A DNA stretch of 64,000 bases, from positions 91,333 to 155,332 of the forward strand of contig JAJEKV010000536.1 of NCBI GenBank assembly GCA_021234155.1. The letters are read 5' to 3'. This DNA comes from Isoetes taiwanensis (lineage: Eukaryota; Streptophyta; Lycopodiopsida; Isoetales; Isoetaceae). Position numbers and translations under genes: made by a program. The notes beneath the pieces were generated by a model. That model had not been told where the DNA came from and searched no databases. It was given only the letters and a program-made list of their open reading frames with translations. Of this stretch, positions 6,391 through 41,067 are shown one piece after another (the stretch's first letter is position 1; every line of letters starts with the position of its first letter).

Positions 6391-6690
6391 ATATATCCTT
6401 ATATATATACAATTATATGAGTGCCTGCCAACATGAAGTAGAGATGAAGTAGAGATTGATCTCGGCCGTCCATCTCTGAGATAGACGGCCCAGACGGTGC
6501 CACCTCGTAACACCCAAGCATCCCCCCTTATTTGGGGCTTTTAATCTGGGCCCTTGAAATTGGGGCATTTTATCTAGACCGTCGATTAAAATTATTTGGG
6601 GCTTTTCATATGGGCCGTCGGATTTGAGCACCCTTTATTTGGGGCTTTTCATATCGGCCGTCGGATTTGAGAATCATGTCCGGATTTTTA
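6391..6690 (+). repeat. Left terminal inverted repeat with subterminal tandem units
   Basis: The outer 155 bp pairs closely with 34858-35012 on the opposite strand. The inner part holds three copies of TTTGGGGCTTTT; the last two are followed by ATATGGGCCGTCGGATTTGA or a close variant. These inner units are diverged from those at the right end, so the strict mirror symmetry is limited to the outer part. Confidence 0.8.
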
Positions 6691-6738
6691 TTTTGATGAG
6701 TGGCATTCAATACTCTTAGGCTTTCCCTCTCCATGCGG

Positions 6739-7344
6739 CTATGGCTCTTTACCACACTTTTGATCCGTCCTCTGATCGATTGCATTCGAGAAATTTAGTG
6801 GAAGCGTGTTTAAATCCGGATGCTGGATTGGTACCGACTCATTCTTCACCATCATTCCTCCATGCTGGTATGGCCAGAGCCCCATAGCCTCCATTGGACG
6901 GTCTCTGCCTTCGCATTTTGGCATTCTCGGCTCACCCTTAGCCCCCTTGATGCAGAGCCGATTATGTATATTCTTTCAGGATTTGTTGGTTTTACACGAT
7001 CCGGATCAGACCTGAACTTGAGATGTTGATACAAACGGTTCTTTCGGCTTTGTCTTTAAGCCGATTTCCTAAACGGGAGGTTTCAATGCATGTCTTCTTT
7101 AAAAGCCCGGTAAATTATTCATCAATCATGTTCTAAAATGCATCACAGTGGTGAAGTTAATGATTTTACACGTAAAAAAAGTACGCTTTAACGTGGTCTA
7201 TGGAGGATCAAACAAACCTAATCCCGTCCAAGAAGCAATTACAGATCAAGATCAAGCTCAAGCTTTACATTTTGGCCTTCTTTGGTGTCAACGGTGATCG
7301 GGTCAAGCTTCAAGCAACATCGAGTCAATATTATGTTTAAGGTC
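6739..7344 (+). pseudogene. Unidentified exon-like segments just inside the left inverted repeat
   Basis: A frame opens with an ATG about 50 bp inside the inverted repeat (6743) and reads MALYHTFDPSSDRLHSRNLV before stops appear. A second frame at 7201-7344 starts MEDQTNLIPSKKQLQIKIKL and ends near a possible splice donor. The second has a faint resemblance to a Pro-Ser-Lys-rich stretch of DUF810 proteins, whose fragment begins at 7800, but this is not enough to assign it. Treat as possible captured coding sequence. Confidence 0.25.
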
Positions 7345-7799
7345 GATTTTTTTTTTTTCTTGCATTCATCTCTCTGCTTTCTTCGCTTTTATTTCTTTCG
7401 ATTTCAAGCTCATTTTTACTTAACAAAATTAGTTCGGCATTCTTCATTCACGGCATTTGATTAAGCTAGACTTCGATTGATGAAGCTTCACAAGTACTAA
7501 TGTGGATCCGAATTAGATCTTCCTCTTTGTTGCCCCTTACGGAACCTTAAAAAGGTGTTCTGCTTGAAAAAGAAGTCATGTTCGAATATAAATTTGCACA
7601 GGTTGTGAAAGGAAGTTCACTGGGTGTATTCTTTTTGCAAAAGAAGTCCACTGGGTTTATTTTTTTTCGGCAACACAACTGCGAAACTTGGCAGTACGAC
7701 AATAGAGGTATTTGGTAGTTTAAACATTATCAGCTTTTTTCTTGCGCAAGAAAACAAGCCAACATCTTTTAAAGATCACATTCTTCTTCTCGCTAAAGA

Positions 7800-8754
7800 G
7801 ACGTAATTGTGGAAAACTCTCAACATAGCTTGGCCGATGTTCTAATTGTTCCCTTAGAACTCCTACAGCATGTCAGTGCTTCTGATTTCTCTGGCTCTCA
7901 AGAATATTGAAATTGGCAAAAATGCCAGCTCAAGGTCCTTTAAGTTGGCCTGTTTACTCATCCTTCTCTTAAACATGAAGCTTTGGATGATTACTTCAAT
8001 GACTTAAAGAAGGCAATCTTAGACATCAATAATAGAGCTGTTAAGGCCGGAAAGAACAAACAGCATTTCAAACAAGACTGCTGTAATTATATATAGCAAA
8101 AGCTTGCCATTAGCGATGGTTTTCCATTTAATATTCATCTATATACCATGGTCTTGAGGTGTTTGTTTGACAATTTGGAGGAAAATAACTTTGTTGAACA
8201 TAGTGACAAATTATGGATTTGATGAAGAAGACGTGGAGGATTGTTGAATTGAGTGACCTTACACCACACATGCTTTGCATGGGTGTCGCTTCGTCGATTC
8301 ATAGCCACGGGACAAACAGAGGTATCTCTATTGAAAGCTGCGAGAGAAAACGAAATGAAGGAAGTTGACAAGTTTATCAAGGCAAAAGATCCCTATCCGA
8401 ATAGATTTCCTTCTCTCTACACGCATAAAGATTTCACCTACACTTATATGATAGGTGTCTATATTCAATCATCAATGAGTTCTCTGCTTTTCCGTGTAAT
8501 CTCTTTTTCTTTGATGTTTGGTAAATTTTGATTGATCAAAACTAGGAACTAAACTTTGATGTGTTATGTTTCAGGTGGTAGAACATCTGCACAGTGAACA
8601 TTCCAATGGGCATGAACCTTTTAGCTCAAGGTTGGCAGAAGAAATTGCCACCTTAGCAAAAGACGAGGAAGAAAAATATAGGCCTATATGGAATCAATGC
8701 CATCCATGTCCAGCCAAACGGCAAGGAGATGCAGATGCCGAAAGTTGGGACTAA
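7800..8754 (+). pseudogene. DUF810/PATROL1-like (MUN-domain) gene fragment
   Basis: Plus-strand frames, interrupted by stops and shifts, read LADVLIVPLELLQHVSASDF, then EY*NWQKCQLKVL, GFPFNIHLYTMVLRCLFDNL, TLHHTCFAWVSLRRFIATGQ and, after an acceptor TTTCAG at 8574, RLAEEIATLAKDEEEKYRPI. The order and content match plant DUF810 proteins of the PATROL1 type, Munc13/MUN-domain relatives that help deliver proton ATPase to the guard-cell plasma membrane: LLVPLELL, a WQKRQL motif, a GF/Y...LN.RLY motif, a CFAWVLF.R.V.TG-like motif, then an LAE..EKL stretch. At least four disruptions make it non-functional. It lies inside the inverted-repeat element, so it is probably a captured copy with introns. 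Identification is from remembered family motifs. Confidence 0.7.
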
Positions 8755-10454
8755 TTGCAGCTCATATAACATGTCCAAGGGTGACAGATCATTGTGTAGC
8801 TTGTTGTAGCATTCTCCAATATCCAACCCGTGATTAAATGTTTTTCTTGCAAGCCCTTAAGCTGGTAAATAGCTGGTATATTAGGTAGTGCATGGACATT
8901 CATGATGCATTATTTTGTTTTTGATTTCATCGAAATATTTCCTATTAAATGTATAAGGTGCAATTGGTGTATGGCAGCCCTTATAGAGCAAGATGTGAAC
9001 ATTGTTGGAATATGAGCGGAACATTTGCTTCTGTTCCCTTTGTTGTTGTAAATTTTCTTCAGCAAAGAAGTCGGTGGCAAAAGATCACATTCTTCTAGAT
9101 GAGGTATTATTACCAAAATTAAAATATAGATTAATAGAGTAACGTCAAGATTGTCATCACGTTGGATGATGTATGGGACATGCAATCGTGATAATGTTTG
9201 GCGTTTTGTGTAAAGATATGAAGGTACTTATTGATTAATTTTGTATCATGCAAGACCGACTATGGATATGTAGCCATCAACCCAGGAACTTACTTAGATG
9301 CTTGCTTTTCTTAGGATGCTCGCTTTTACGTGAAGGTGGAGTTCCAAGAGTTCCCTCACGTGAGTGCATTCTCTTAATTGATCTTGATAGCCGAATTTTC
9401 CTCAGGATGTTTCTGTAGTAGAATCCAATATGGTAGATATTAGGGAATTAGATTAACTATCATGATCTTTAAGATACGCTGATCATAGATTCCGTGCAGA
9501 TGCATTCTAAAGGCACAAAACCATGCAAGACCTGACTATGGATATGTAGCCATCAACCCAGGAACTTACTTAGGATGCTTGCTTTTCTTAGGATGCTCGC
9601 TTTTAAGGAAGGTGGAGTTCCAAGAGTTCCCACGCGAGTGCATTCTCTTAATTGATCTTGATAGCCTAATTTTCCCGAGGATGTTTTACGTAGTAGAATC
9701 CAATATGGTAGATATGGGGGAATTAGATTAACTATTATGATCTTTAAGATATCATCATAGATTCCGTGCTGGATTTGGCTATTGAATGGTTTGAGCAGAT
9801 GCATTCTAAAGGCACAAAACCAAATAAAATGATGACTTTAGATATTTGCGAGTATAGGCGAGAAGCATTAGTGCCTTTCATTGGATTTGGCATATTGTGA
9901 GGTCGATTTAGTCAAATTTGGATGCTCCGATAAATCAACTGTCGACCGTTATTGAATTGTGCTACCTTTTATGCGATTCAAAGATTGGAGCTTGAAGTCA
10001 TTGTTTTTTTTTTTTTTTCGGCTAACGCCCATTGTAAGATAACCGAGGATGCAATGATAATGCTAGGTATGCACTTTAGATATTGTCATCATTGCAATAT
10101 ATTATCCGCGTGATCCATCTGCAAGGCCCGATATATTTCATTGCAAAGGTTATGGTTGGCTTTGGAAATGCCCTAATGCCGGGTACTTATTTTCACTTCC
10201 GATTCATCCACTGGGCCTTGGTTGTTGTTAAAGCTTTGAGAAAATTCTAACCCATGGAGCATGGAGGGCTTATTCTTGTGTTGTAATCTGGCAGCCCTAT
10301 GCTTTTGTTTATAGTATTTTAAGTTTGCTAGATAAACTAGCGTGAGGAGAAAGGGAAGGCGAAGCTTCGTGATTCCCAGAGGCAACAAATTTTATGAAGT
10401 TACATCTTCAATTAATGGAGCAGGTGATTCAAAGGCATGACGATTTGAAGCAAT
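8755..10454. other. Interior of the giant element: intron-like and repeat DNA
   Basis: Apart from the 275-bp tandem repeat, no coding sequence is recognised. A T15 run lies near 10005-10020. It could contain intron sequence flanking captured exons. Confidence 0.4.
9247..9822. repeat. Tandem duplication, 275-bp unit
   Basis: The block starting CATGCAAGACC at 9247 is repeated from 9522. The second copy contains an additional 25-bp stretch (GGATTTGGCTATTGAATGG). Other differences are mostly 1-2 base changes at C-N-G sites, such as GACCGAC versus GACCTGAC and CCTCAGG versus CCCGAGG. Confidence 0.85.
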
Positions 10455-10691
10455 GTGGCACTACTTCTCGACAATGATAGCCGCAAGAGCACATCAGAAA
10501 AAGTAGAATATGTTTTAGATATGAATGATCCAAAGATTAAATTTAGTGCCATGAAGAGGCTTTCCAACAAACGTAGATATGTTCCGTCAATGCCAAATGA
10601 TGCAAGGCCATTGCTAGTCTTTATCAACCGGGTGAAAAGTGGAGCCCAACATGGAGCCAGTCTATGCCGAAGATTCAATATGTTGCTGAAC
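10455..10691 (+). pseudogene. Diacylglycerol kinase (DGK1/2-like) exon fragment
   Basis: The plus-strand frame holds KRRYVPSMPNDARPLLVFIN, then KSGAQHGASLCRRFNMLLN. This is the opening of the DAGK catalytic domain; plant DGK1/DGK2 proteins have ...RPLLVFIN.KSGAQ.G..L..RL..LLNPVQVFEL. The enzyme phosphorylates diacylglycerol to phosphatidic acid at membranes. The homologous stretch stops exactly after LLN, a likely exon edge, where intron-like sequence follows. An extra Val sits between INR and KSG, inside a motif that is normally uninterrupted. The upstream Cys-rich C1 domains and the rest of the kinase domain are not found nearby, so this is one captured exon in the inverted-repeat element. 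Confidence 0.8.
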
Positions 10692-11850
10692 TGCTCGTGT
10701 ATTCATTATATAGAAAATAAGGTTTTGATTGTTAAAATTAGAAGTACTTTGAAGTGACAAGACATCATACATGTTTAGATGTCTCAAACGCTTGTCGCAC
10801 CAAAGATTTTCCAATCGATTCAAAAGATTGATCCGAAACATCTAAGATGTCTCAAATTGTCGCTAAAACTGGTAATTTGAGATATTTGACTATTCAGCCT
10901 AAGCATTTTGATGGAAGTGCAAGTTGGCAAGAAAGAAAGATTATTATAACATATACTAGAGACCACTTGGGTCTATGAGACCATTTATACAAAGAATCAT
11001 GTACGTAGCCTATAGCATTTAGACGCCTCCTAGAAAGAGAGAAAGAAAAAATTAAAGCTTACAAAGCTTATTGTTGATTCCCGCGATCTAATCTTGATAT
11101 TTTAGTTCTAGTCCCCGATCAAAGCCTTGTTCTATTACATCGCTTTTTGCATGCTTTGAATGAATATCGTGTTTGTTTGTTGCTACTTCAATGTTCCCTT
11201 TTCACTTGAGACCTAATATTTTTTTTCTTCTTGAGCGTAGTTTTGCTTGGGATGTACATCCTTGAGGTAATCTTTTTCTCTGCCTCTTCTTTTCCTAGTG
11301 TAGAAAAAAGAGTAAGCAAACAAGAGGTGGTTGTGTTGACCAATCATAGAACTGCTCGCATCCCAAGCTTGGTAAAGTTATGAGTATTTTGGCCATGTTC
11401 ATGTTGTATATGTCAATTATGTGCATGGTGTATCAATTTGTGTAGAAATCATTCTAAATACTTGCTCATTGCTATGGGACAACTTGCTCATTATTCCTTC
11501 CTTCCTAGGTTTTTGTATGTTTTGCCATTTTTCCATTAGTTCCGTTACTAGTTTTGACGTTCTTATTTCGGGTTTTAGTTTTGTCGCTTTTTTATTCTAT
11601 TTTCAATTTAAGCTTCTTCCCTTCTTTGTAGCAAGACTCATTCACCCATATAAATCCGTTGTTAAATCATGTCTTTGTTGCTCTATTCTTGGCAAATCAT
11701 ATAGCGTAGAGCCATGTATGAGAAGGCGGCCCGCATGATCTTTGACCGCCATAGCAACTCGAGGCTATGCTTTGAGTTTATCTTGCATTTTTTGAAGAAG
11801 CATAATCTTAAAAGTTGTAACTAACATGCAATATATGAGCGTTTATGTAG

Positions 11851-11989
11851 GGCTTGCAGACAAGCGTTTGATGAAGCTATTGGGTAGCTTGATGCATTGA
11901 ACTAAGAATCCTACAAGGATAGCACATTGATTATGACTTCCGGGAACAACTTAACTTTGTGGACCTCTCGATTCGCGGGGAGGATGGAG
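11851..11989 (+). pseudogene. 14-3-3 protein exon fragment
   Basis: After TTTATGTAG (splice acceptor) the DNA encodes, across small frameshifts, ACRQAFDEAI, then LDALN, [10 protein letters not shown] and NLTLWTS, and ends at GATGGAG|GTATGT (a splice donor). This is the conserved 14-3-3 C-terminal exon ([34 protein letters not shown]), which builds part of the phosphopeptide-binding groove. At least two frame breaks, one replacing QLLRD, make it non-coding. It keeps both exon borders, so it derives from genomic DNA rather than a processed transcript. It lies on the same strand as, and downstream of, the DUF810-like and DGK fragments. Confidence 0.8.
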
Positions 11990-14900
11990 GTATGTTTTGT
12001 TCCTTTGACTTATTTATACTCTTATGAACTTCCACTACTATGGACTTGCTTGTTACTGTGAGAAGACCGGTGAAAGGTGATGAGGTGGCATGTTTGATGA
12101 TGGAGGCTTGATGATCAGAGCTTCATGCACATGACCTAAGAACATCTTATTATGAATGTGCAAAGGATGTGTTCCATATTAAAGATCGATTGTATGCCTT
12201 TCAAGGCAAGCATGTAATGAATGACAACACGATTCTGTTAGTTACCTCGAATCACTTCTTCCTCTTGCACCGCTTAGTAGAGGAGGTTCGAGAGAACTCT
12301 TTATTTTTCTAAGGTCTCCAGAGATCCTCTAGATTCTGCTTGTTTTATGGCCATAAGAGTTTCTATGATGTCGCTCATTTTTTTTGAAAGGAATCTATTT
12401 GATAATTTGTATATATCTGTTTTGTTATGCTAAAGATGTGACTTGTGTGGATCGCCTCGCTATGAATAAATTCTTTTGTATGTGTTTTTGAGTAGCATGG
12501 TTATATGGTTGTATGTGTCCTGTTAAGGTGGGAATTGAAAAAAGATCGGGCTACAAAGACTGAAAACTGGTTTCAGTTTGTAACTGAGATATTTCTGGAC
12601 ATTTTTGGCTTGTGTTGGTTAAAATATAACGGAGACGTGCAGACCTGTCGTAACGTTGTTACAAAGTTGTAAGGCGGGCAAAACGGTTGCCACATTTCCA
12701 GGAAGGTTTAGCCGAGGAGCACGATCCTGGCCCAAGGTTAGGGTTTTGGAAATTGGAATAGGGGTTTGATTTTGGGTCAAGATGTTGCAAGTTTATTGTA
12801 TCTTACTTTAATTATATTCATAAGACGTTATCTATATTGTAGAAAACTTTTTGGGAACTTGCCTTCATGGTGAGGTGTATTTTTTACCGTAGATGTTCTT
12901 AAAGCTCTTAGTGAGAATTTTGAACCACTAGGAAATAATTTTAGCATGACCGTTTGCTAAACCAGTCTCAAAAACATTCAAAATCTGGGATGCCTAGGAT
13001 GTTGCATGTTCTAACAATCCTAGGGTCAAAGAATTAAATGAAAATCTTGCATGCATTCCTTTGAATTTCGACCTCTACAGTAGTGTTGACTACAACAAAG
13101 CTGCTTAAAAGAACTTGGAACTTTTCTAGGAAATGACATGTATGACCCTATAAGGCTTGTGTTTGAAAGAAATCTTGGCCCGTTGGAAGACATCCGTGGT
13201 TCCGATTAAAAAAGAAACAACTTAGAAAAATTCGAGTAGTGAAAAACAAAAAGTTGGGCTTTATGTAGATTTGGACGATAGCCTTAGTGTTGTCGCATCT
13301 AAAACCGAATTGCAAGAAGCCGCTTTTCGATTCTCGCCATGTTCATATGATTCATGTGCTTGGAAAAAGCAACATCCGTGTTTTGACTCAAAATAGTGCT
13401 ATGATATAGATGGGATTTCTGATACCAACCGCTTCTTAGATTTGCTTTTCATGGGTAGGACAAAGCGAGATTTTGCCATATCTTTGCATCATGCAAAACT
13501 TGCAAAGCGCGCAGCACATGCAATCTAGAAACCATGGCGAAGCTTCCTTTTAACGGCCAAGCCTCGCTGTTAGGCAATGACCAGAGGCATGCAGGCATCT
13601 CTTTCTTTGAGCCTGCGATACACTGTAATATTTGCATTGTTCATGTCTTCAATGGCTTGTTTTTTTTGCCTTGCAGGAACCTTTTTGCTCGTCCATCCGC
13701 TCAGAATACTCGTGAATGGCTATGGCATATTGAAGATCCACCCTCTTTCCTGTAAGAACTCCATTTCTTTTTTTTGTTGGGATTCTCATCCACCGTTCAA
13801 CTTGAGTCCAAATAGCAAAATGATCTGCTCCTCTATCAGGCATTTAGTTATGGCAGCCCACAGATTGGTAGATGTGGCTTTAAAGAAGGATTTCACAATT
13901 GTGATGCCCAAACAAACTAACATAACTACTATGAACATTAATTAACACAAACCATTACATTAGACATGTTTAAAATTAAATTCCCCCTTAAACCCCCTTT
14001 TGTTTGGGTGCATATTCACACGGGGGTGACTGGCACCCAGAGCTGTTGGATAGGCATATTCATCCCTTATTCCTTTTAAACCTTTTCATGATTGTGCAAT
14101 GTATATGAGGTTAATGGAGGTGAAACAGTTCCAATGAATTATAGCGACGGGAAGAGGGAGAGAGGTACAGGAATGGGCATGGTTCGAGCGTGAGTATTTT
14201 TTTTTTAATAGTCTTACATATTAAGGAATGACTAAAATCAATGTCTCAATTTTAGATAACTTAATAAATATATACTAGTTTGCTTATCACCATCGATATT
14301 GTTTGCAAGCATTGGAAGGGGTGGGAATATGAAGCCGGTGACCATTGAACCATGATAGCCTTTTCTCACTCCTTTTGCATTTAACTTGCCTAAGCATTAT
14401 CTTTTTTATCCTCTCATGCATGAAGGCTCAATCTTTGGTGTTTGCTTAAGAATTTTGTGAAGCCCGGGCCTTAGATTGTTCTCAATTGGTTTGCGATGGA
14501 TATGGCTATCAACAATTTTGCTCCAAATTTGACTTTTTTCTTTGCTCAAGCCGGCGTGAGAATCGAGAGGATTTAGCTACTGGGCTTTGTGTTCGAAGTT
14601 CACCTTGCACCTCCCGGAGTTTACACCATCCTTGATGAATAGGTTTATAACCACCTCTCGAGGAAGACAGGTTTGGGGTTTTGGTAGGCCGCAGCTTGTG
14701 TTTATGGGTCTTAGAGTTTAGATTTCTTGTCGAACAAGCATGTATTTATCTTTGTGGATTTTTATTTGCAGGTTTTGAAAGATGGGTTGAGTTCTGGTCA
14801 ATATTCCTTTGCCATTGTCTAAACAACAGTACAATTTCTTCTTATAAATGCAAGGACGATAGCATCCATGTCTAAATAATAATTGCACAAGTAATATTTT

Positions 14901-17900
14901 GAATATTGGTTTCACGCCCTTAGCAATTCACTTCCTTTGTTTTTGAATTACGCCCAGCCATTCTCATGGTTTGGTAGCCAAGGGCAATGTATGTGAGACC
15001 CGTTATTGAGATGATAATTATGGTTTTAGCTACCTCAAGTATAGCAAAGTAAAAGCCCAAAAATGAGGTCCTAATCATAATGCGTAAAATGTTGAGCTAA
15101 TTGGGCGGATGATCCACTCAACTATAGACGCGTTTGAAGGAAGGATGGTGATTTAGTCTTGACTCGCACTAATTGATACTTATACAAGAACCATGTAGAA
15201 GAACGGGTCATATGGTAAACTTCTCTACTTGCTTGTTTATGTGGCCGAATGAGGCAAAAGTCCGTGCTCCCAGAGCCTTCACATTTTACATACCTTTGGA
15301 CTGGACATTATGAATGGTGCCTATCACATGGAGAATGAATCTTGCAAGTTATAGGAAATCCATCATGGGTAACTCAAAGATATAGATCATGGTGCATTCT
15401 CGATAAGAATATCATAGCCATTTTTTAAAAACATGGGGAACAATTTGGGCTTTCCGTTTTTATACATTGCATGTCCATATTGATGTTTTGCTTTAAGGGC
15501 TCAACATTTACATTACAAATAGAGTTTTGTGGCCAATTGAAGATCATATCCCCGATTCACATTTCAGAACATTTGTAGCTGGTTTAAAAAGCTCGGAGAG
15601 CCTATACAAAAGGCATCTCTCTATAGGGCTTCACAAAGTGTCAGAGATCTTCGGATTTAGAGTAAAACCATGTTTTTGTTTGTTGTGTCTTGATTGTGTA
15701 ATGCACATCTTTGATTATTCATGCGTTGCCTATTTGCAGTGAACGGTTTGATCAGATGACTAGGTTATTTGGAGTATCACAAGATTGCCGAAGCGAGAAT
15801 GCCAAACTCGGAATTTCGTGTTTGATTCTCGTGCAGTTGTAGAGTTGTTTTATTTTGCTTGCCGAAGCTTGAAGAGTTACAATTTTCGGGGCTATTCTTG
15901 GAGCTGGAAGTGTGATTGATTCAAAACTAAACCTTTAAAGGTCACGTATCCCCTTTTACGCTCTGCTTTAGAATAAGGGCGATCTGCAGATCTCTTTGAT
16001 TATTTTAATGGTTCTTTCAGCGGCTCCATGTTCTTAAGTGCGAGATAATGAAATTAAGAAATCACAAGAACTGGCAATCTTTCTATTGTAAATGCCCAAT
16101 AAAAAGGCGGATCTTTTATGCTATTGTTTTGGCATCTTTTAAATGCTTAGGCATGTTGTGCTATTCGTTCTACAGTAGTTGGACTCAGCTTTATAGGGTG
16201 GTTGGTTTCCTCATCATGTTTGCGGGCTTTCAAAGCTTTAGATATCTAAATATTCTAATCAAATATCCAAAATGTTTTAGTACCAGACTCCGCAGTGAAA
16301 GACTCAGTGGATGCAAAATGGATCCAGTTTTTTGTTCGACGGATCAACTAAAGATTTTTGAAGGCTTTAAAACTTTAATATCGTGATAGTTGAAGGAAGC
16401 GTATCTAATATAACTCTGCATTTCTTTACAGATTAAATTTTTTATCTGAGCCTCTCATTTCTTTATTTTGTGGGTAATCTTTGAAAAAGACCTTTGAACA
16501 TATGACATTTTAATGCAAGGTAATCAATGAATGACAATGCAACCACCTTTTGATAAAATAAAGACTGGTTCAATGCAATAACGGACCAATGGATTTGGGA
16601 TTGCGGGGTTATGGAATTATTTTGGAAGACCATGAACACCGATTCTTTAAGAATGGCTTAATCACAACAATGGTAATTGGTTGAAATTGCCGATGCTTGG
16701 GTTCTTATTTCATGGTTTGAAATTTGTATCTATTTGGAACATGGTAATTGGTTCAAAATTACTAGATGCTTGTCGGGCACCTACATGATAAAATATAGTA
16801 CATTTTTTCTTAATTGTTTTTCTCGATTAAATGGGTGACCCTAATCATCTACGGTCTTGATGCAGTTTATCTATTTTTTACGTTATGAAAGAAACCTTCA
16901 TTAGACAAGATTTTGAAGTTCCTTATTGATGCATAAGATGCCTTTATTAGACGACTTTTGAGAGATGTTTTATTGGTACATAACTTAAGATTTCATCGAG
17001 AAGGGCTTAATGTAAGAAGATTTTATATTTTGAGAAGAGTGGTTCATGGGTCATAGACAGAGAGATCAAACTCCTCGTTGACTTCATCCAAGCCTTAATT
17101 GTGTTTGATAATGTACACCTCGATAGCTTGAACTGGATATTACAAGTTGAGGCCTGGAAAACATGCTTCCTTTGTATATATCTAGAATATCGTGATTGAC
17201 AGAGATATGAAGCCCATATGAGGGCTATCCGTCAAGATGAAAGTTGCTTCTGTTATGGAGCTTGACATAAAATTTAGTGCATTAAGGGACAATATTTAGT
17301 TTGTTATACCTTAAGCTACCTCAAATTTACGAGAACTTATTCATGTTGTTTAATGGAAAAGACTCAATGAACAACTCATGTTCTTTGCATACACGTCAAA
17401 CATTGCTTTTTATAGAAAGAAAGCTATACCTCCTTTACAACCTGGCCTATAGTCTTATAATCATCAAATGTTGTTCCTTTTCTCTTTTGATTGCTCCAAT
17501 CCAATTTGTTTGTTGAGTTATAATTGTATATTTGACTATGTCATTTGTGGTATGAGGATGTTGAACCATTTATGCATTTCGTGAAACAAGGAACTGCAAA
17601 AACGAAGCATACCAAATCAAGGTAAAATTTGGCCAGGAAAGCAATTCAATACAATATTCCTCTCCACAAGTTCATCTCAAGAAGATGTAGTTCCTCTCCA
17701 TAATTTGACACGCAGAGTTGATTTGAACTTGCTAGAGCATCATTATATGGAAAATCAAAAGCCATTGCAAGTCCCGATACTACATTGCAAAAGGTGGCTT
17801 GATTGACTACGAGGATCTTGATTTACTATTTTGGTGAATGCCTTGCAAGATTGTCAATGCAAAGTATTGAATTAGAAATAGAAACCCGTAGGAGAGTTAC

Positions 17901-19293: not shown

Positions 19294-20370
19294 ATTGACT
19301 TCTTTGAACTTAATTTTTGACACTCAATTTTAGATACTCTATTTAAGCTCAAATTTCACTTTCACGATATTTTGAGAATTTGGTGACAATACTACAACGT
19401 GCAGAATAATTTGAAAATTTGGCGACAATACTGCCAATAACTTCGTTCGCCATGTGCTCCCTTGATAGTTGGTAGTAAAAAGGTCTTAGCCCTTGAGGTT
19501 GAGGTTCTGCATTACTAGAAACTTGAAACGTGCAGGACGTATTTTGGCATTGTTTTGTAGGGGATCTCAAGGAAGGGTGTGCTTTGCAATGATTTTTTGA
19601 ATAATCTTAAGGAATACTCCAGTAGCTTGGGGAATGTTAATATATCTCTGGAAACTCTCGAAGAATCTTATAGAATATTTTCAAAATATTGGATAGTCTT
19701 AATGGAATGCTGATAAAGTTAAAAATCTTATAGAAACTTACGTACGTACATTCGTCTCCGTACACTAAAAATTTGGTGACAATACTACCAATAACTTCTT
19801 TCACCATGTTCTCCCTTGAAAGTTGGTAGTAAAAAGGTCTTAGCCCTTAAGGTGAGGTTCTGCATTGCCAGAAACTTAAAACATGCAGGACGTATTGACT
19901 TCTTCTAACTTAATTTTTGACACTCAACTTTAGATACTTATCTATTTAAGCTCAAATTTTACTTTCACGATATTTTGAGAATTTGGTGACAATACTACAA
20001 CGTGCAGAATAATTTGAAAATTTGGCGACAATCGCTAATAACCGTTCGCCATGTGCTCCCATGATAGTTGGTAGTAAAAAGGTCTTACCCCTTGAGGTTG
20101 AGGTTACGCATTGCTAGAAACTTGAAACGCAAGGGGACGATTTTGGCATTGTTTTGTAGGGGATCTTAAGGAAGGGTGTGCTTTGCAATGATTTTTTGAA
20201 TAATCTTAAGGAATACTCCAGTAGCTTGGGGAATGTTAATATATCTCTAGAAACTCTCGAAGAATCTTATAGAATATTTTCAAAATATTGGATAGTCTTA
20301 ATGGAATGCTGATAAACTTAAAAATCTTATAGAAACTCACGTACGTACATTCGTCTCCGTACACCCCTTA
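19294..20370. repeat. Tandem duplication, about 0.6-kb unit
   Basis: The block starting TTGACTTCTT...GAACTTAATTTTTGACACTC at 19294 recurs at 19893. Both contain GAGAATTTGGTGACAATACT, GTAGTAAAAAGGTCTTA and AGTAGCTTGGGGAATG, and end ACGTACGTACATTCGTCTCC. The first copy also carries a partial internal duplicate (about 19771-19892). Confidence 0.85.
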
Positions 20371-23330: not shown

Positions 23331-24934
23331 TATCTTTTATCTTTTAACATTGTAACTATTTACAGGTAACGTAGGGTCCTAGCAGAATGCTAGGTACCCT
23401 ACGCTACCTAGCAATATACTAAATTTTCTTTTAGGACCCTACATCCTGCGGTAGGAGGTAGGTTGCTATCATTATATTTATATAATTATTCTATGTGTCC
23501 CAGGGAAACGATGCACCCATGGTTTATATAATGTGTTAAAAATATGTGACATGCTTCTTTTGGGGTGAATTGGGGGCACTTGGTTATGGCTTAAAAACAG
23601 GCCATTGGATTATGGATGGGTCATGCATGGGGCATGCATGGCCATGCATGAGGGCATGCAACACATCCCTGGACCATTGGATCAAAAAGGGGAGGTGAAA
23701 TCATGGCCCTTGATTTTTACAAAGAAGGTGCAAGGAAGCTTCCTCTCAAAGTGGATTTAGTGTAACCAATCTCCACCGTTAGATCAAAAGGGGGATGAGA
23801 AATCATAGCCATTCATTTTTTTATTAAATTAGAGTTTTTTATATTAAAGGAGGTGAGGTGTCACCCTTTTATTTAATGAAAAGGTAATGAGGTGGCATCC
23901 CATTAATTATGAAGCTTTTTTTATGGAAGCTTCCTTCTTTTGTGTTGCCTTCAAACGACTTTAACTTGCAATCGAGATCTCGGATCAAAGTAGGACCTAA
24001 ACCATTGGATTCCTCTCATCGAATGCTTTCCAATGAGTGGTGGTTTGACATCATTAAGTGCAACCTCCGGATAATCTAGGTGAATCTTCATAGAACCTAA
24101 GGGTATGTAGAAACTTGGGGAACTTAGAGGAATCTTGGGATAATATTTGGGAATCAAGTACATCTCAAGAGAATCTTAAGGAATCTATGGGAATCTCCAA
24201 AGAATCTAGGGGAATCTAAGAGAATCTTCAAAAATGCTTAAGAATCTAGGAAAATCTTGATGGAATCTTTGAGAATCTAGGGATCTTCATAGAATTTAAG
24301 GGAATCTAGGAGAATCTACATAGAATCTTGGGGAATCTAAGCGTGTTTAATAAAGGAATCTTGATAGAATCTAAAGGAATCTAAGAATCTAGGGAAATCT
24401 AGAGAACATTTGGGATAATCTTTGAGAATCTAGGGGAATCTTACGAGAATCTTAAATAATCTATGGGATTAAGAGAATCTAAGGCACTAAATATTTAAGA
24501 ATCTAGGATACTTTTAGGAATCTTGAAGAATCTAAGAGAACTTTTATAGAATCTAAGAGAATCTAGGGGAATCTCAGAGAATCTAAGGAATCTAATGAGA
24601 ATCTAATGAAATCTATGAGAATCTACATAGAATTTTGGAGAATTTAGAGGATTCTTGTGATAATGTTTGAAAATCTAGAGGAATCTTTATAGAATATTAA
24701 GAATGTAGGGAAGCTTGTGGAATCTTAGGAATCTTTCACAAGTAAGTGTGTTTAGTAGGGGAATCTAAGGGAATCTAAGGGAATCTATATAGAATCTATA
24801 TAGATTCTTAAAGAATCTAGAGAAAATTTGAGATAATCTTTGAGAATCTAAGGGAATCGTAAGAGAGTCTTAAGTAATCTATAGGATTAAGAGAATCTAA
24901 GAGAATCTTCATTGGATGGCTCAGAATTTGTGTA
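23331..24934. repeat. GAATCT-rich simple/minisatellite region between the duplicated blocks
   Basis: From about 24070 to 24910 the sequence is a degenerate array of GAATCT with AAGG or TAGG spacers (for example GGGAATCTAAGGGAATCT). 23380-23470 contains a small inverted motif around GGTACCCTACGC/TAGGGTCC. 23560-23900 has ACCATTGGATCAAAA-type segments, reminiscent of the subterminal units of the giant element. No gene. Confidence 0.7.
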
Positions 24935-27870
24935 CTCCCTCATAGTACAACCACTTGTATATATATATAAATATAAATATATATAACAGGTTGGAGACGG
25001 TTGCAACATAAGAGCTAGTTACGGCACTTGTGAAGCTCATACATTTGTGGGAGAACAACCGCTCAAAATACTAAGAGCTGTGTAGTCTCCTTTATTGCAT
25101 ACGCTCAAAGTACTAGAGCTATGTTTTATCTAGAGCTTTTTGCATAGCGTCCAGACTTTATTTAAGGCAGACTTTCCTTGGATATTTATGGTCACCTAGA
25201 CATTGGCCATTACATGCACATCTTGGCTAGGGTCAACAAAATTGATGATAGTAATTGACGGACTTATCGAGGGCGGAATGCTCCCTTGCCTTGCATACTG
25301 CAATGAGTATGGCAAGAAAAATAATTTGGAGACCTTGGCTATATGCTTAGGCTTTGTTAAACAAAATTGACAAAAACATGAAAAATGGCTTAATGCCATA
25401 CAAAATTAATAAGTATAATTTTGACCTTTAAATTTTCATGTCAATCATGTAAATTGGTTTAGGGCATGGGCGTAACGCGGCTTTTGGTTGCTACCAACCC
25501 CAGCTGGTTGCTACCAACCCAGAAGATTCGGATATGGCAAACAAAGCTCCAGATCTCGGATTTTATGCTCATTGCTCATCTTTGATGAAGCTGGAAGATT
25601 CTATCACGACCGATACAAAGCCACACAAAGAACACATATCAGGTGTGTCTTACATTCTATTCTGCCAGTAAATCCTCTAGTTATGGAGTAGGAAATCCCG
25701 AGAAAGAAACTTTGAAGAATAAAGCTTCATAAGAAAGCTGCCAGATCACATTTAGGTCGGATTTCAGAAATCGTTTTCTGACATAGCTAATCTCGTCAAA
25801 ACTTGACTGTTTTTTCATGAAAAGATAGAGCGTATTGTGCGTTTTCGAAACATATAATTAATAAAAAAACAGAGCTACGTGCTAAGAGCTATACTGTTTT
25901 TGTAGGGGCTGTCATTTTATGGCAGCAAGTACTTATCTTCCATTTTTACAAGCTTAGACTTAAAATTTGATGGAGATGCACCTAAGATGAAATATAGACT
26001 TAAGAAAGGGGCTTCTTTTTGCTTCTATTCTCAAGAAGTTTGGTTGCTTATATCTCTTACTATCGTCGGTTAACTAACAAATCATGTAGCTTTACATATG
26101 ATTTTCAATGCAAAGGTGCTAAGCTATGGGCTTGGAGCAAAAGCCGCCTTTGGCATTCTTTATCAAGATTGAAACTATCTTACAGATCTGATTTTAAGAT
26201 CAATGGTAGTTCTTAAAATAATGATCTAATTTGAGAACTTGGAAACTACCCAAATAAGACATAATGTAAATACATGCTGAAATAATGTTTCTTAGAATGC
26301 AAATGCATAACTGAGATAATTCATTGATAGGCTAAATTATTCTTGAACTAGTTATGTTCTACTTTGTATATCTCCGGGTTATGGGTAGAAAATCCTAGAA
26401 AGAAACTTTGAAGCAAAAGTTTCATAATAAAGCTGCAGATTTCATTAGGTCGGATTTCAGAAATCGTTTTCTGACATAGCAAATCTCTTCAAAACTTGAC
26501 TGTTTTTCCTTGAGAAGATAGAGCATATCATGCCGTTTCAAAACATATAATTAATAAAAAACAGAGTCTTGTGCTAAGAGTTATGGCAGTTTACATGCGG
26601 GCTGTTATTTCATGGCAGCAAATACTTATTCTTCATTTTGACATGCTTAGACTTAAAATTTCAGAGATGCACCTAAGTCAAAATGTAGACTCAGAAAAAG
26701 AGCTTCTTTTTGCTTCTATTCTTGAGAAGTTTGGTTGCTTATATCTCTTGCTATTGTCATTTAGATAACAAACTATGTAGCTCCCGTCTACTTTTTTTTG
26801 GAGGCTATCGGTAATTTTGATTATACTATTATATTTTGAACTGCAATTTTGGGATTTAAGAAAAATCTCAAGTTTTAATTCCATTTCTCTTTCTTGTTAA
26901 CGTTTACTCAGTAAAAAGGATACAATTGGTGATCAGTGATAAGGCGAGAGACCCAATGTACCTTTGGCCCTTGCATCTCTTGTTAGGGATTATCGCTAAC
27001 GTTTGCATGATTGGCCGCAGTAATGGGTTCTCTCCTCCAATTGTCTCTGTTTTTGCTACGGGGTTGGCGTTAACATGGAAGGTTATGGAATTACGGAAAA
27101 AAATGTAAGCGTATGCTATACGTTTTACAAGTTATTGTTTAAACTATACACTTTCAAGAAAAAGTCTACTTTGCAATTTGCTCTCTACTTTAATACGTAT
27201 GCTTTAGAATTTGTCTCAACTACTTTTCATTAAGGATGCATAGTTTTGGGGCTTGAGAAATCAGCCCTCGACTAAATATCCCTAAATGTTAAGTGTTGAG
27301 ATATGCTTAAGAATCGCCATATGAGTTTTCATTAAGGACACATAGTTTTGGGGCTTGAGAAATCAGCCCTCTACTAGGTAGCCCGAATGTGAAAGTAATG
27401 AGCGATTTTAGACTAATATGGAGCTTATTTAGTATTCTTGTTGGACTCATTTGGTTTAGGGCTGGGTAGTGCGGGACGGAACTTCTCTAGCCCGGTTAAG
27501 TGACCAAGTTAGGAGTATGGACTTGGCTAGGATTAGACCCTAGGCAAAGGAAAGTATATATCTTTGAAACAAACATTTATCATATTCAAGGATATGAAAC
27601 TCTATCCTTTTGAGTCCACCTGAATTAATTGAACACAGTACACCTCTCGTGATTTATTGAACATTATGTTTTCCATTAGCACTGCTCTACCATTACATTG
27701 GCTATTACTTATTTGCTACTTACTTACTGTTTGCTATTTACTTATGCATTGGGACATTTTAAAAAATGACAAGTACGAGCCACAGAATGATGACGGATTT
27801 CTATGGTTTATGAACATTAAAAAAGTGGGCTTCTTGAAACCTGAGCATGACCATAAAGGTATGACCATAA
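24935..27870. repeat. Segmental duplication, copy B (about 2.94 kb)
   Basis: The same unit order as 20371-23330, with the same nested duplication (25683-26220 and 26385-26870). Differences from copy A are many small indels and substitutions concentrated at CAG/CTG/CCG-like sites, for example GATGAAGCGGAAG in A versus GATGAAGCTGGAAG in B. The right end degenerates into GAATCT-type sequence again at 27960-28100. Confidence 0.85.
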
Positions 27871-30800
27871 AGGTATGACCATATATATATACAAGTTTTT
27901 GTACCATGAATGGGTTAATGAGCTATGGTTTATGAAGACATGGAAATAAAATCTAGGCTTAAACGGATTGGAATACACTGAAAGAGTCGAATTTAGTGGA
28001 ATCCTCATACAATGATCGAAAATCTAAGTGGATTAAGAAATCCTAAAGGATCTAGAAGAATCTTCATAAAACCTTAGAGAGTTTAAGGAAATATTAAGAT
28101 CCCTCTATAATTCTCATTCTTTCAAATTCTATAAAGATTCCAACATTATCTAGAAACATTTGCATTTGCCCTTTTTTTTTTATTCTACATAACCATGGAT
28201 TTATTTTTTGAGGCCGGGCATTTCGGCACATGTTATATTGCAAAATAACATTCTCAGAAAAAAATGTTACCTTTGGGAAGTGGCAATTTCTATACAAAAG
28301 ATTGTGTATGCGCATTGGGTGGGTTGTTACATCTTTTTCACAAAAAACATGTTTACGTTGCGTAACGGTTGGCATGAAACAATATAAATGTTTTATTTCT
28401 TCACAATGATCATAGATTGAATATTTTTCATTGTTTCTACTCACTTAGAAACCTTTGCCAAGCATTGCCGATCATTCTTTGATCGCCTTGTATATGCCAT
28501 TCCTATTTGTATTTTCATGCATTATATGTACATCGTCGGGGGCGCTCAAGTATCATCTGGGGGTGTGAGGTGTATACTTGTGGACCCTTGATCTAGCATA
28601 TTTGTAGAAATATGCGAAATCCAATGTCAACATTAAGATATTTAGAACATTAAAATACCATAGCTTTCATGTAAAATGTTAGGGTGGTTAAATGTGAAAT
28701 ATGTAATTGATTTTAGGGTTAATCTTAATGGCAAGTTCGAAGGTTGGCATGCAATTCTTGTATGTGACGCCCTACACACGGCAATGTCGACTTACCCGAC
28801 ACAATGGGCATTTGGGGCAATCGGTCTTCCATGGAGTGGATTCTAAAAAGGGTCGTCTACCCACATAAGAATGCAACCTTGTTCTTTGTGTTTTATGAAT
28901 ATTTGGACCCGTCAACAACGATACCAAATAATAGAACCCACATCCAAGGGGATCGAAAGCATGGGCGCACCGCTATGCTTATATCCTATTTGGGGAATGG
29001 ACATCATAAATAGAGACTTCAGGTCTCCAACAATAAATGCATGCATCTGGAAGGAAAGCGGATAATAAGGCCAAAGTTAACCTAGGCAAATCGGCAAAAA
29101 CTCATTGTGCAAGCTTCTATAACCACACATTCTTGCTAATTTCTCCAGGAAAGAGCTCGAAACAACAATGCATCTAAGAATCGTCCATAAGAAGTGTTCC
29201 ATACATGGAAGAAAAAGTATTCATATCAACATGGACAAACCCTCTCCGGCAAGCTCTCCTCTTAAACATCCCTTTAAAACATATGGCTGAAATAACATAT
29301 TTGCAAGCCTTTTATTCATTTCAATATGCTTAAGCGAGAGCCACCTATTTACGCAAAACAAAAGGACCTCGAGATTAGAGACAAAAAGCGGAGAAACATT
29401 CAACCATAAACACAACTTACACGAAGATGAAATGCAATGCAAGATGATGATGCAAGCCAACAATACCATGTTGTCGTGCCACAAAATCTTTATTGAAAAT
29501 GACTTTCATACACACAGACGTGAAGTCATCAACAATCTGGCGGTGTGCAAGCTAAGTATATAACCACTTTAGCCATAAAGATATGGAAAAGAGAAAATAC
29601 CATCTCAAAGTCCAAGTTGTTGCTCAAAATTAGCAAATTCCCCAATTCCAACACGCCTAAGTCCTTGAGGCTTAAGAAAGGGAAGTTGTCCTGGACTCGT
29701 CACAGAACTTTGGTGCCTTGGAAGGTAATGGGAATGATTTTTTTCTGGCTGGGTTTGCCATGTGGCAAAGTCAAGCCCTAGATAACGACCTAATGGGGAT
29801 CGCCCTTAGATTTAAGACTACCATAAATACACAAATTTATAGTGTACTTTCCTAGAAACCCTAGAAAATTTGATGGAAATGGCTGAAAAAAGTGCGAAAA
29901 CATTTTTTACGCTATTGAAAATTTTAGAATTTTTTGAATTCGGGGTCCCCCCCCCCCAAATTTCGATTGCCACCCCCAAATTTCAATTCCACGGTTCTAC
30001 CTTAAACAATGCCTTCTAAGGTCACCCATTCATTATGCCTATTGGACTATGTGCATTCTAGAGACAATGCCTTGGCATGTTTTGGATGGGATGGTAATAG
30101 AGTAGGTTTAATTTTGGTTGACCTTGCAATATTCTAGATGGAGGCTATCACACATATTCAAGGCAATATTAACCTTGCAATATTCTAAAAAAGGGGTATT
30201 GCACATATGAAGGCAAGATTGATTATGGTCACTCGTTACACTATTTTAGATAGAGGCATCAAACAAACTCAAAGCAAGATGACTATGGTCACTCACTCAT
30301 TCGTTGCACCCAACCGGTTCAATTCCTTGGAGGGTGATAACACATCAATCCAAGGCAAGATCATAGTCACCCATGTCCAATGGGTTCAATCGGGTGGATC
30401 TTACAATATTTCATTTGGGCAAGGTATCAAATCAACGTGGGGCAAAATTATTGTAACCCACTCCCGACGCCCTATCATTTACATTGTATAAGAACTACCT
30501 TCTTATGAAAATACCGTGACGTCGTTACTTAAAAAACATAATTCTAATTTTAAAATCCTTAAGGTACCACGGTTTTAAAATGCTACGGCGACAACAATTG
30601 GCTAATGAAGAACTAAAAGAAATCATGCGCCATGCAACGGAAATTATTCAAAGCCATTAGGTGAAACACTTTGGGAATGCATGTAAAGACATGATCAACG
30701 AACTCCAACTACTAACATCAACCATTAATCGTCACTAATATAAACTACCTCACAAACTTTAACCATTGTTACCCGGTCCCAGCCTACATCAAATTCCACA

Positions 30801-33800
30801 TACTCCTAGTTTGAAGATTTCCCGAAACTCATATTAAGATTGGTAAATAAATCTTTGCTGCAGCCCAAAATGCCAAGAGAACATGCAATGTCCGAACAAA
30901 TCTTGCACAATATCTTGCATCAACCATGCTAAACACGAGGAAAAATGCAGCGTTGCAAAACCTCAACATTTACTTGTGTGTATCGAATAACAAGATGTAA
31001 GCCACGAATCCTTCTCAAGAACAAGACCCCAATGAATGTGCATATGTTATTGTTGGGGAAAAAGCAACGGTTGAGAAATCAACAAATTGTATGATGCTCC
31101 ATGGCATCTATCATAACGCTCACTCATAGTCTTCATCGAAGGCACATTGGCACTTGTAATAATGCTAAAATGAAGACATCGTGTATGAGACCACACCAAG
31201 CCTATGAAATACACATCATTTAATAGCTAGTAAGCCTTTTACTTTGACCTTTGTTGTGCAATCAATAGCAAGAAAGGGATAGCCAATTTTCTATTATCTT
31301 TTGTGAGCAATGCATCCTCGCTTTGTTTCGACCGGATATGTGCTGTGTAGTAAGAAGAAAACATAATATTAGAGACATCATAACAAACAATATAACAGAT
31401 GACATAATGAAACAAAATCTTTGTCCATTACTCTCAATATGTTCACATTTGCCATTAGTTGAATTCACGTTCATATGAAGACATTTTGAGAAGCCAAAAG
31501 GACAATTTGTGCGAGTTAAATGTACAAAGATGAGTTACCCAAAATCTCGTAAATTCACACCTTGGCGATGAGCGTGCAGCCAAAACCCAAGTTGTACATT
31601 TTTTCATGAAAAATAAATCGTAAACAATGAGACTATTAGAGTTTAGCATTCTTTGTTAATTTATTTTCACAAATGCTTACCACTAGTTGGGATCTCAAAT
31701 TAGAGATGAGAAAAGGCGTAATTGAGCAGGGGCTAAATTGGCGCTCTCAGGCCGGAGTTGTGCGTAGAGGATAATTGTTGTAGTCATTTCCTCCAATAGT
31801 CCGCAAAACAAGGGCATTGGCGATAATATTTGCTTGCAGATCGGGGCTCCACGTTGGAAGGCAGAGTAAACTGTTGGGCATGGTTAATCTTCTCAACCGC
31901 CGGCATTTCTAGAAAGGTCATCTGAAATCCTCAAAATGCCTGCTCCTGCGGATGCAAAGTTGGCTCCTCATAATAGATCTTGGGTTGTCATACCAGGTGA
32001 TATGGTATCGTTTCGTTGTTGTCAAGAGAGGGTTTCGTGAAGAAACGGATAACAAACCCAAAATCAAAGCGGAAGTATGACAAAGTCACGGAAGCTTAAA
32101 TATCTTTGTTTCCTTTGCTGACACATTCTCGATGACAACCACTTTGAGATGCGGCGGATGATGGCATATCCAATCCAAAAGTGACATGTCTTCAACAAAG
32201 TCTCTCGTGCATATAAATAAACCAAATTTTAGGAATTTGCAATTTGCTTCTTAGACCGAGACCAACCGATGCACATATGTAGTCATGCAAGGATGCTTCA
32301 AGTTGCTCATGAACATTCTCTCAGTATATATATATCGAACCGGAAAGAATGATAGCCGTTAGGTAAAGTCACAAAAGTAGGATTTATAGCGTAATTCTCA
32401 TATACGGGAACAACGTTGTAGGTACCATACCTCAAGGGAAGAGCCCATCCCACAGACAATGCAAACATTATTAGTGGTTCCGGATAATCAATTGAAAATT
32501 TACTTTGCTCTCCTCGACAGTCTAACCTTGTGAAGGGCCAAGAACAATGCACGCATTAGGGTTAATCAAAAATTCATCATGCAGCGATTGAAATTGCTTT
32601 ACCAATAGTAACAAGTTGTGGCTTCTATAAAGGTAACCTATAGGGAAAGGGAATAAACTACTTACAACGGGGACATTACGCCAGAGGCCTTCCTTTTAAT
32701 AAAAGCATATTCAATGGCAAGAGCATTGAATGAGTGGCCCCCAACAATGTAGCATGCACGTGTGACAAAAAGCTTTAACTACATGGATAACCTAATGGAG
32801 AGATCGTGAAATTTTAGCTTAACCTTACGCATCAATTGGCAAACTTTGTGCTGCTCTGGGGACACCATATGCCAAAATGCACGTAAATTTTGTGCCAAAT
32901 TAGTAAATCAACTAACACTTATGCGTAAAGAAGTGCTCTAACCTGTTACCTCAATCATTTAGGAAGTATCTCTGATACGGGGCCGCATTAGGTACTACAT
33001 ACATTGGGAGGCTTCAAATGAGTTGATCAGACCTAATTAAGGCGTCGATTATCAAAGCCCATACGGCAGGTCCTGCAACAATATGCTCCCCCCGAGGTGA
33101 TTGAAATGGCAAAACCATCCGAATCGAGGCAATACATCCATTAGAATGATGGAAATGACAACTAAAATTGCAAAACGAACCCACCATAGCCTAAAATTAC
33201 CCAGTGCTTTGAATATAGAACTCACACCACAACATATGCAAAAGCGGACCTTTAGAACTCACACCATAACATGTCCATCGGGAGTCACCTTGCGTAACAA
33301 AGAGGGGAAGTAGTTGGGACAAATACCTATACTTTCAAAATTTGCTTTGCAAAGATATTCAAGTCGCATTCTTTATCGCGGAGATGTGTGTTACTTCCGG
33401 TGCCAACTGTAAACACCGTGTTCTGCCCAAGGTAGCTTTTCAGGTGTTGTGTATGGATCACAAGACTTCTCTATTCCCATCACATCATTTTGGCTGCACA
33501 GATCTACAAGCGGGACTTCTTCCAACAGACAATAGAGCTCGAGCTATGAAGAAGGCGTGAGCACACATGCAAATTTGTAATCGTTAGAGCAGTCTTAAAG
33601 CATTTGGATCAGGTTAAAAATCCAACAAAAGGGCGTATAAATAAACACAAGCCACACAAATCCAAATGTACTTCCGGATCTGAAGCTAGCAAACTCGAGG
33701 AGAATCGTAGCTTTTGGACCGTAAGATAGAAATATAAGCCTTGATTACCGGACAATGCATTAAATTAAAAAGCATTAAGATTGTAACAACTAGAAAAGCA

Positions 33801-34107
33801 TTTATAGAAAAGCATTTACGATGCAAGGAAATGGAAAAACATTCTGATTGCTCACCTTGCTCTATGCTCCATCGTGCTCCAAATCCAATGTCGGTTGTAG
33901 CAAGATAGAATTCAACCACCAAGTTGATAGACTGTTATGCCATTTTAGATTTCCACGGCGATGCATCACTTGCTATGGCAAAGTGCAATATATTAGTGAG
34001 ATACCGAGCAATGATTGAAAGCAAAAAGTTGACAACAACCACTTGAATAAAAGGAAAAAAAAACGCCCATATCGCATTTCAACTCAAGATAAATGTTTTG
34101 CACTAAC
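27871..34107. other. Interior of the giant element, right part: repeats and unidentified remnants
   Basis: 30110-30470 holds about five degenerate units around CAAGGCAAGATT and GGTCACTC. A C11 run is at 29948-29958. Minus-strand patches may be exon remnants: TACAACCGACATTGGATTTG at 33880-33900 reads TTDIGFGARWSIEQ before a GTGAGC donor. 33350-33460 reads LPWAEHGVYSWHR and NTHLRDKECDLNIFAKQILK in different frames, and 32400-32500 reads GTYNVVPVYENYAINPTFVT. None could be assigned to a family. Confidence 0.3.
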
Positions 34108-34354
34108 TTGTCCAAAGCCTCGGGTACTTTTGCTTCCGAATCCTGAAGAAAATCTTCATGGAATAACAGGTTGTCATCCACTTTTGTAAAACCAGAATCG
34201 ATTCTTGCTCCAACCCGCAGTGCAAGTTAGGTGGCGGAAAGGAGGGATTCCAAGATTGAGAAAGAGAAGACTTACTTATGAGCGGTTTCTCTAAATTTCT
34301 CCTCTTCGAGGAACTGAAGAATGAGGAAGACGAGCTCCGACCGAGGGAAGACAT
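34108..34354 (-). pseudogene. Unidentified gene 5' fragment: two exons with Ser-rich N-terminus
   Basis: Exon 1 runs 34354-34276, starts MSSLGRSSSSSFFSSSKRRN and ends at A|GTAAGT, a consensus donor. Exon 2 (34207-34108), after GTTGGAG, joins in the same phase and reads RIDSGFTKVDDNLLFHEDFL, then QDSEAKVPEALDK, before GTTAGT. The joined 59 codons have no stop. The Ser/Arg-rich start could be an organelle-targeting peptide. A likely third exon near 33960-33850 does not keep the frame. The fragment starts about 340 bp inside the right inverted repeat and points inward, mirroring the plus-strand fragments on the left. I do not recognise the protein. Confidence 0.5.
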
Positions 34355-34689
34355 CGCTAGGGCCCCCCGGAGTTTGCGGATCACAAAGGAATTGAGAGAG
34401 GTCGCGGAGGTCGCATGGATAAAAGCAGAAAGCGGGCTAACGATAAGAGCGGGCTAAGGGGGCAGCCCATAACCTCATCTCCTCCGTGTTCGACGCGCCA
34501 TAGCAGCCCTCATAAAAACTTGCATCTTCATCCCCCCTTCCACTCCTATACCACTTTTCCGACATCTCAGGCCTACCCTATTCCATGGGCAATAACACGT
34601 CATTCGCTTATGGGACACGAAAATTTGGCACGCCACCATTTTTAGGAAAAACTAGGGAAACAACATATAACGTGTCTGCCACTTCTTAG

Positions 34690-35012
34690 GATAGCATTAA
34701 TGTCAAGGACCTTTGTATGAACGGCCAAGATCAAACCCCTAAATCCAAGGGCCTAGGTCAAAAGCCCCAAATAAGGGGACATTTATGGTGGCATTTAATA
34801 TCATTAATTTTTTTATGGATGGCCTAGATCAAATCCCTAAATCCGATGGTCCAGGTTAAAAGCCCCAAATCAGGGGGATGCTTGGGGTGTTACGAGGTGG
34901 CACCGTCTGGACCGTCCATCTTAGAGATGGACGGCCGAGATCAATCTCTACCAAATCTCTACTTCATGTTGGCAGCACTCATATAATTGTATATATATAA
35001 GGATATATATAG
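34690..35012 (-). repeat. Right terminal inverted repeat with subterminal tandem units
   Basis: The outer part (34858-35012) is the reverse complement of 6391-6545. The inner part repeats AAAAGCCCCAAAT twice, with GGATGGCCTAGATCAAATCC or a variant between. It is the mirror of the left end in layout, though the inner units differ in sequence. Confidence 0.8.
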
Positions 35013-41066: not shown

Positions 41067-41067
41067 T

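Follow-up and report, generated by a model that had tools for sequence, protein, structure and literature searches.

What is a 28.6-kb block with mirror-image ends, carrying pieces of host genes, doing inside a retrotransposon? The question is raised by a stretch of 64,000 nucleotides from Isoetes taiwanensis (assembly GCA_021234155.1, contig JAJEKV010000536.1, positions 91,333 to 155,332 of the forward strand; hereafter the window, numbered from its first letter), in which the block fills positions 6391 to 35012. A preliminary description had read the block as a single, exceptionally large Pack-MULE, a gene-carrying Mutator-like element (MULE). Our analysis points elsewhere: with a probability of roughly 87%, the block consists of independent DNA modules set in a row, in the order A-E1-B, X1, E2, X2, B-E3-A, where A and B denote two kinds of module end. 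E1 and E3 have separate distributions in the genome, and most junctions lie in TA runs. From left to right the row comprises:

6391..20405, plus strand: E1, a 14.0-kb module with its A end on the left and its B end and a TA tract on the right (from genome copies).
6391..6677, plus strand: A end of E1, including its subterminal tandem units (from end comparisons).
20364..20405, plus strand: B end of E1 (finishing in TATAGTACACATACTTG), then a (TA)10 tract (from copy alignments).
20406..23476, plus strand: X1, the first of two copies of a TA-bounded 3.1-kb unit (from the internal duplication and genome copies).
23477..24957, plus strand: E2, a small AGAATCT-repeat module between X1 and X2 (from end motifs).
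24970..27881, plus strand: X2, second X copy, its tail absent where E3 begins (from the internal duplication).
27882..35011, minus strand: E3, a 7.1-kb module with its B end at 27882 and its A end at about 35011 (from genome copies).
34810..35011, minus strand: A end of E3 (from end comparisons).

If the block were one element, then other copies should carry both of its ends at the same spacing, as the preliminary description expected. We searched the genome with the outermost 1,500 bases of each side, scoring 40 of 1,234 candidates for the left and 40 of 1,131 for the right. The left end recurs near-complete at six other places (C1025, C902, C1067, C1073, C75 and C370) and the right end at three (C1070, C1089 and C1056). 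The two lists share no locus, and the outer ends were not found together among the candidates scored. The partner end in these copies lies about 14 kb inside for left-end copies and 7-8 kb inside for right-end copies, and no second copy of the whole block was seen in the end and element searches, with 40 candidates scored in each. Because the left and right ends belong to separate units at disjoint loci, we rejected a single giant Pack-MULE. The preliminary description had named, as the outcome that would count against its reading, ends that recur as independent short elements with their own target duplications; the ends do recur independently, but in elements that are long and have no target duplication that we could see.

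What looks like a mirror image is a pair of A ends that both face outward, with E1 on the plus strand and E3 on the minus strand. In inverted orientation the block ends are 88.6% alike across 202 columns (6391-6591 versus 34810-35008), and positions 1-154 of the 155-bp left end have a 94% match in the right end (C260:126188-126340). These 155-bp ends, which had been described as mirror images, are alike as reverse complements but not identical. The subterminal tandem units noticed earlier are present: 34712-34778 and 34810-34876 are repeats of each other at 83.6%, and the left end has a related unit (81%); neither is in the tandem-repeat finder's list.

Copies elsewhere delimit both outer modules. 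Five other complete copies of E1 follow the window for ~14 kb and stop at 20391-20417, at the motif TATAGTACACATACTTG followed by TA repeats. An insert of 3 kb lies in the copy of C75, the C1073 copy is a deletion derivative, and C1026 matches the inner part of E1, from 10321 on. The outer A-side flanks of the five copies (about 480 bp each) differ, with the one exception of L002/L003, which align over 90 columns at 73% beside adjoining B ends. Copies of E3 in C1089 and C1056 follow the window inward to 27881 and show the same kind of B motif; each of these two complete copies holds a 0.6-0.7-kb insert, and the copy in C1070 is broken up. The ends of E1 and E3 do not form long inverted repeats. 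Between the terminal 300 bp of the A and B ends of E1, the alignment covers 29 columns, which are mostly TA, and scores 16.5 against 12.5 for the best of 100 shuffles; for E3 it covers 13 columns, with a score of 13.0 equal to that of the best shuffle (13.0).

Between E1 and E3, the internal duplication that had been noted is real: 20365-23313 and 24937-27864 are 93.9% identical. Genome-wide, the X unit gives 44 matching stretches from 40 scored of 1,920 first-look candidates. In C366 and C1034 it forms head-to-tail tandems with a ~3.1-kb period and TA tracts at unit borders, and these tandems share a shorter last unit ending GGCAAAGGAAAG. The B end of E2 is clear (24937-24957) and its A end, probably at about 23479, is weak; a relative lies in L012.

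Where did the row land? The surroundings are those of a retrotransposon with paired long terminal repeats (LTRs):

4206..6048, no strand assigned: left LTR of the host retrotransposon, paired with 41062-42594 (85-87% alike).
41062..42594, no strand assigned: right LTR of the host retrotransposon, paired with 4206-6048.
6371..6390, no strand assigned: target left flank, adjoining a short TA run within the retrotransposon (from empty-site alignments).
35012..35030, no strand assigned: target right flank (from empty-site alignments).

When the joined flanks (358 bases) were used as a query and 40 of 185 first-look candidates scored, 38 of the 40 matches were continuous through the junction and held no block (identity 79-87%), and the remaining two were the window's own flanks; the predicted empty site in the LTR element family is thereby confirmed. 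At most of 10 empty sites aligned from these 38, the target reads GATACATATATAGAT or near it. Counted by hand, with the element edge set at TCC, the left and right flanks of the occupied site are together longer than GATACATATATAGAT by about one TA unit, so the window site has no 9-11-bp duplication of the kind that had been anticipated at the block ends and that MULEs, Pack-MULEs included, usually leave. As element and target share the TA run, the exact borders of the block are uncertain by up to about 8 bp. The row as a whole sits within a single short TA run of an old LTR retrotransposon.

This clean empty site for the whole block, together with the two outward A ends, is what one would see had one 28.6-kb Pack-MULE or macrotransposon entered with its A ends acting as paired terminal inverted repeats. 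Yet E1 and E3 are each found without the other, and neither a second block copy nor a duplication at the block ends was seen, which leaves such an element very improbable.

A second insertion site is similar. C1056 has its E3 copy within a repeat, whose spanning relatives share about 50 bp of the left flank. Nine empty relatives of this site read GTACATGTACATACATATACATATCTAGC or close variants, and the occupied site contains the letters of GTACATGTACATACATATACATATCTAGC a single time, except for one C, together with additional TA repeats. Neither of the two sites tested shows a 9-10-bp target duplication, though both targets are TA-rich and growth of the TA run could hide one. The joined flanks of the E3 copy in C1089 gave no spanning match.

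If modules of this kind form a family, then their ends should recur in a consistent arrangement. A 23-mer from the A end has 239 genome matches at <=2 mismatches and its reversed control has 0, so the recurrence is not chance; a 25-mer from the B end has 2,394 matches at <=3 mismatches (control, 4). We counted spacings on the first 100 listed of the 239 A ends and the first 100 of the 2,394 B ends. Among these listed matches, a B end on the same strand lies inward of 21 A ends at no more than 30 kb, and 10 of the 21 pairs span 5.5-7.3 kb. Over the same distance the reverse order occurs seven times, once at 149 bp and otherwise at 15.5 kb or more; another four B ends directly adjoin the outer side of an A end; and opposite-strand pairs number five, one of them at 7.1 kb. 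We also fetched 20 A ends, taken from top-scoring end-search matches and not at random, and sorted their neighbours by reader's judgement. Nine adjoin a B end, two an A-type end and two an X border, and three a TA tract only, so that 16/20 adjoin a TA tract or module; the other four adjoin neither. Short independent end elements were rejected for this sample, as no B end (<=4 edits) was found within ~1 kb inside any of the 20, and none was found within about 5.5-6 kb inside four extended A ends. Two to four CCTTAT repeats stand beside the A end in L042, L045 and L049, and are absent from some loci, e.g. L041.

E1 and E3 carry the host-gene pieces, which point inward as had been described, on the plus strand in the left part of the block and on the minus strand in the right part:

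7815..8718, plus strand: PATROL1-like gene piece in E1, 89-94% to L029.
10344..10987, plus strand: diacylglycerol kinase piece in E1, exon and presumed intron, 86% to L030.
11777..12983, plus strand: 14-3-3 gene piece in E1, 75-84% to L031 in three stretches.
31994..33537, minus strand: MIP1 leucine-zipper/DUF547 gene piece in E3, 88-90% to L032.
30767..31924, minus strand: segment of E3 common to C1039, C1033 and (to 31748) C1066, by sequence match.

The donors support these assignments. An open reading frame downstream in the same PATROL1-like gene at L029 matches PF25761 at 1.6e-65, and the kinase donor L030 matches PF00781. The 14-3-3 family, PF00244, scores 241.8 bits in donor L031 and 26.3 bits in the E1 frame, below the cut-off of 33.2. 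Open reading frames of L032 match PF04784 over the cut-off and PF14389 below it. The alignment of the kinase piece continues past the donor's open frame, most likely into an intron, so at least this capture took genomic DNA. In E3, a LisH_TPL match is below cut-off and an exon-like frame at 34103-34453 has no Pfam match; the C1039 counterpart of 30767-31924 gives a weak GDSL-lipase match (PF00657, 18.7 bits; cut-off 23.6). Elements in L025 (2456-8430, TA-bounded), L028 and L027 share different parts with E1 (8717-9500) and E3 (30767-31924), and look as if E1 and E3 had been shuffled from a common relative.

All four gene pieces of E1 and E3 are sense-oriented from A toward B. We scanned all frames of E1 on both strands, three minus-strand and two of the three plus-strand frames of E3, the plus strand of the C1039 element and one minus frame of part of L028, in which a Tho2 match is below cut-off. 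Four further A-end loci were scanned inward for ~5 kb: L058 and L060 on both strands, L061 in two frames of one strand, and L059 in three frames of one strand, where no domain match was found. L058 holds GATase_2 and CBM53, L060 holds PPR, and L061 holds a gyrase C-terminal domain, with PPR below cut-off; the over-cut-off matches again read A toward B. B ends were not found at these four loci, so the domains there are not proven to lie inside elements. On the opposite strand, covered for E1, L058 and L060 and in two frames of E3, only a sub-threshold DUF4180 match, in E1, appeared. At this coverage the one-sided orientation is a lead.

Several smaller features lie nearby. A foldback pair at 45627-46449 has 320-bp arms that are 98% complementary around a 183-bp spacer; a related copy lies at 13911-14073 within E1 and is present in the five complete E1 copies fetched. 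A 90-bp unit stands in two tandem copies (95%) within an open frame at 49730-49914, and a TCTTCC microsatellite at 60275-60365 gives a long glutamate run in the minus-strand frame 60135-60611.

Transposons that seek TA microsatellites are known from other plants. SaTar elements of guayule and rice insert in TA and other microsatellites, form end-to-end rows of unrelated modules and often have flanks that misfit a 10-bp duplication (PMC5907723). Those of guayule measure 0.4-1.7 kb with 40-250-bp inverted repeats and those of rice 0.38-1.9 kb, with one autonomous example of 5.3 kb (PMC5907723). The window row shares with them the TA-tract landing, the end-to-end modules and the lack of a clear 10-bp duplication; E1 at 14.0 kb and E3 at 7.1 kb, with pieces of several host genes, are unlike them. 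MuTAnT of Medicago targets TA microsatellites, and its occupied sites have more TA repeats than its empty ones; its elements are 0.2-1.6 kb long, with inverted repeats averaging 47 bp and 9-bp duplications at non-TA sites, and its autonomous partner, of 4.9 kb, encodes a Jittery-like transposase (PMC4486113). Here too the TA targeting and the extra TA repeats at occupied sites agree, whereas our modules are larger, lack such inverted repeats and show no 9-bp duplication at the two sites tested. In pineapple, Ac-mMITE miniature inverted-repeat elements form non-nested clusters joined by dinucleotide microsatellites, as our modules are, and the authors found no identical clusters among them (PMC8449440), unlike a four-part row that we find at two loci (below).

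By analogy, the row works like a SaTar array. The modules would have come one after another, each into the TA tract left by its predecessor, and such successive entry would stack them end to end. E1 and E3 may be non-autonomous and moved in trans by some enzyme; the analogy with SaTar, MuTAnT and the pineapple mMITE suggests a Mutator-like one, a proposal to which we give even odds. E1 and E3 are gene-packing elements that took up genomic DNA of several unrelated genes and then multiplied, capture being placed before multiplication because other copies carry the same gene pieces.

Some observations weigh against this model. No transposase was found in the frames scanned of E1 or E3. By eye, among 150 listed of 1,021 MULE candidates and 150 listed of 1,813 Helitron candidates, none lies within 15 kb of visible A or B ends. 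E1 and E3, compared over their terminal 300 bp, are without the long inverted repeats of SaTars. The window row, in which E2 separates the X units and X2 is truncated, fits an end-to-end array, but C1067 carries another module's B end in a TA run inside a TA-bounded stretch, E5, so modules are not always uninterrupted. Finally, a four-part row is present in both C1067 and C75: over ~20.5 kb each locus has E1, an inverted E2-like module, a 1-kb module and E5, in one common order. This row is not predicted by strict one-at-a-time insertion.

As the left flanks of C1067 and C75 differ from the TA tract on, their common row points to movement or recombination of rows as units, and here it favours a block that travels whole as well. 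Such movement runs against the view taken in the pineapple paper (PMC8449440). This row may also be a segmental duplication with later changes, or a product of assembly joins. Such joins would fall at TA tracts, which are difficult to assemble and at which the C1067/C75 row has its breakpoints. As an account of module order in general, in place of transposition, duplication or misassembly seems to us hardly credible, given that 38 retrotransposon copies are contiguous at the window site and that complete E1 recurs with different outer flanks. In addition, the left neighbour of the row in C1067 is another module, of about 8.4 kb, and the 1.87 kb past that module gave no match to the 430-bp left flank of C75.

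Could the modules be Helitron-like rolling-circle elements? The TA preference would then be an A-T insertion preference and the X tandems, with their common end, rolling-circle multimers. Helitrons exist in this genome, and asymmetric ends, large size, the lack of a clear target duplication and pieces of several genes in one orientation would suit them. The 3' end of a Helitron reads CTRR and carries a hairpin. Our B ends finish in CTTG, not CTRR, in a count that is circular, as the search motif itself required CTTG; 10 distinct B ends have no conserved hairpin (mean z +0.5), no Rep/helicase was found in the frames scanned, and the modules stack in TA tracts. Maize Helitrons do reach 39 kb and up to nine gene fragments (PMC6431247). 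On balance we regard a Helitron-like origin as unlikely, though the most serious competitor to independent TA-seeking modules.

Pack-MULEs are mostly 1-2 kb, and none exceeded 7 kb in the study of Jiang et al. 2004 (via PMC6431247); gene capture has been reviewed (PMC13317346). E1 and E3 hold host-gene pieces as Pack-MULEs do, but are without long inverted repeats, and no 9-11-bp duplication was seen at the two sites tested. Because the defining end or duplication features tested were not found, we do not file the modules as SaTar, Pack-MULE or Helitron.

Collectively, these comparisons allow a wider proposal, which we hold only tentatively and think somewhat doubtful: a lineage of large (5.5-14 kb), asymmetric-ended, TA-tract-seeking elements that regularly take in fragments of several unrelated genes, in sense orientation and with their introns, and that stand in rows which are shuffled or moved as multi-module units via TA tracts, making TA microsatellites assembly points for gene mosaics. 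In print, TA-seeking transposons are small, with autonomous examples near 5 kb (PMC5907723, PMC4486113), and a literature search confined to listings and abstract openings, mostly without subscription papers, showed no account of TA-seeking modules as large as these that draw on several donor genes. If it is true that gene-carrying modules of 7-14 kb use such sites and stack there, then a microsatellite would line up pieces of unrelated genes. The C1067/C75 pair makes the joint movement of whole rows, against which the pineapple study argued, testable.

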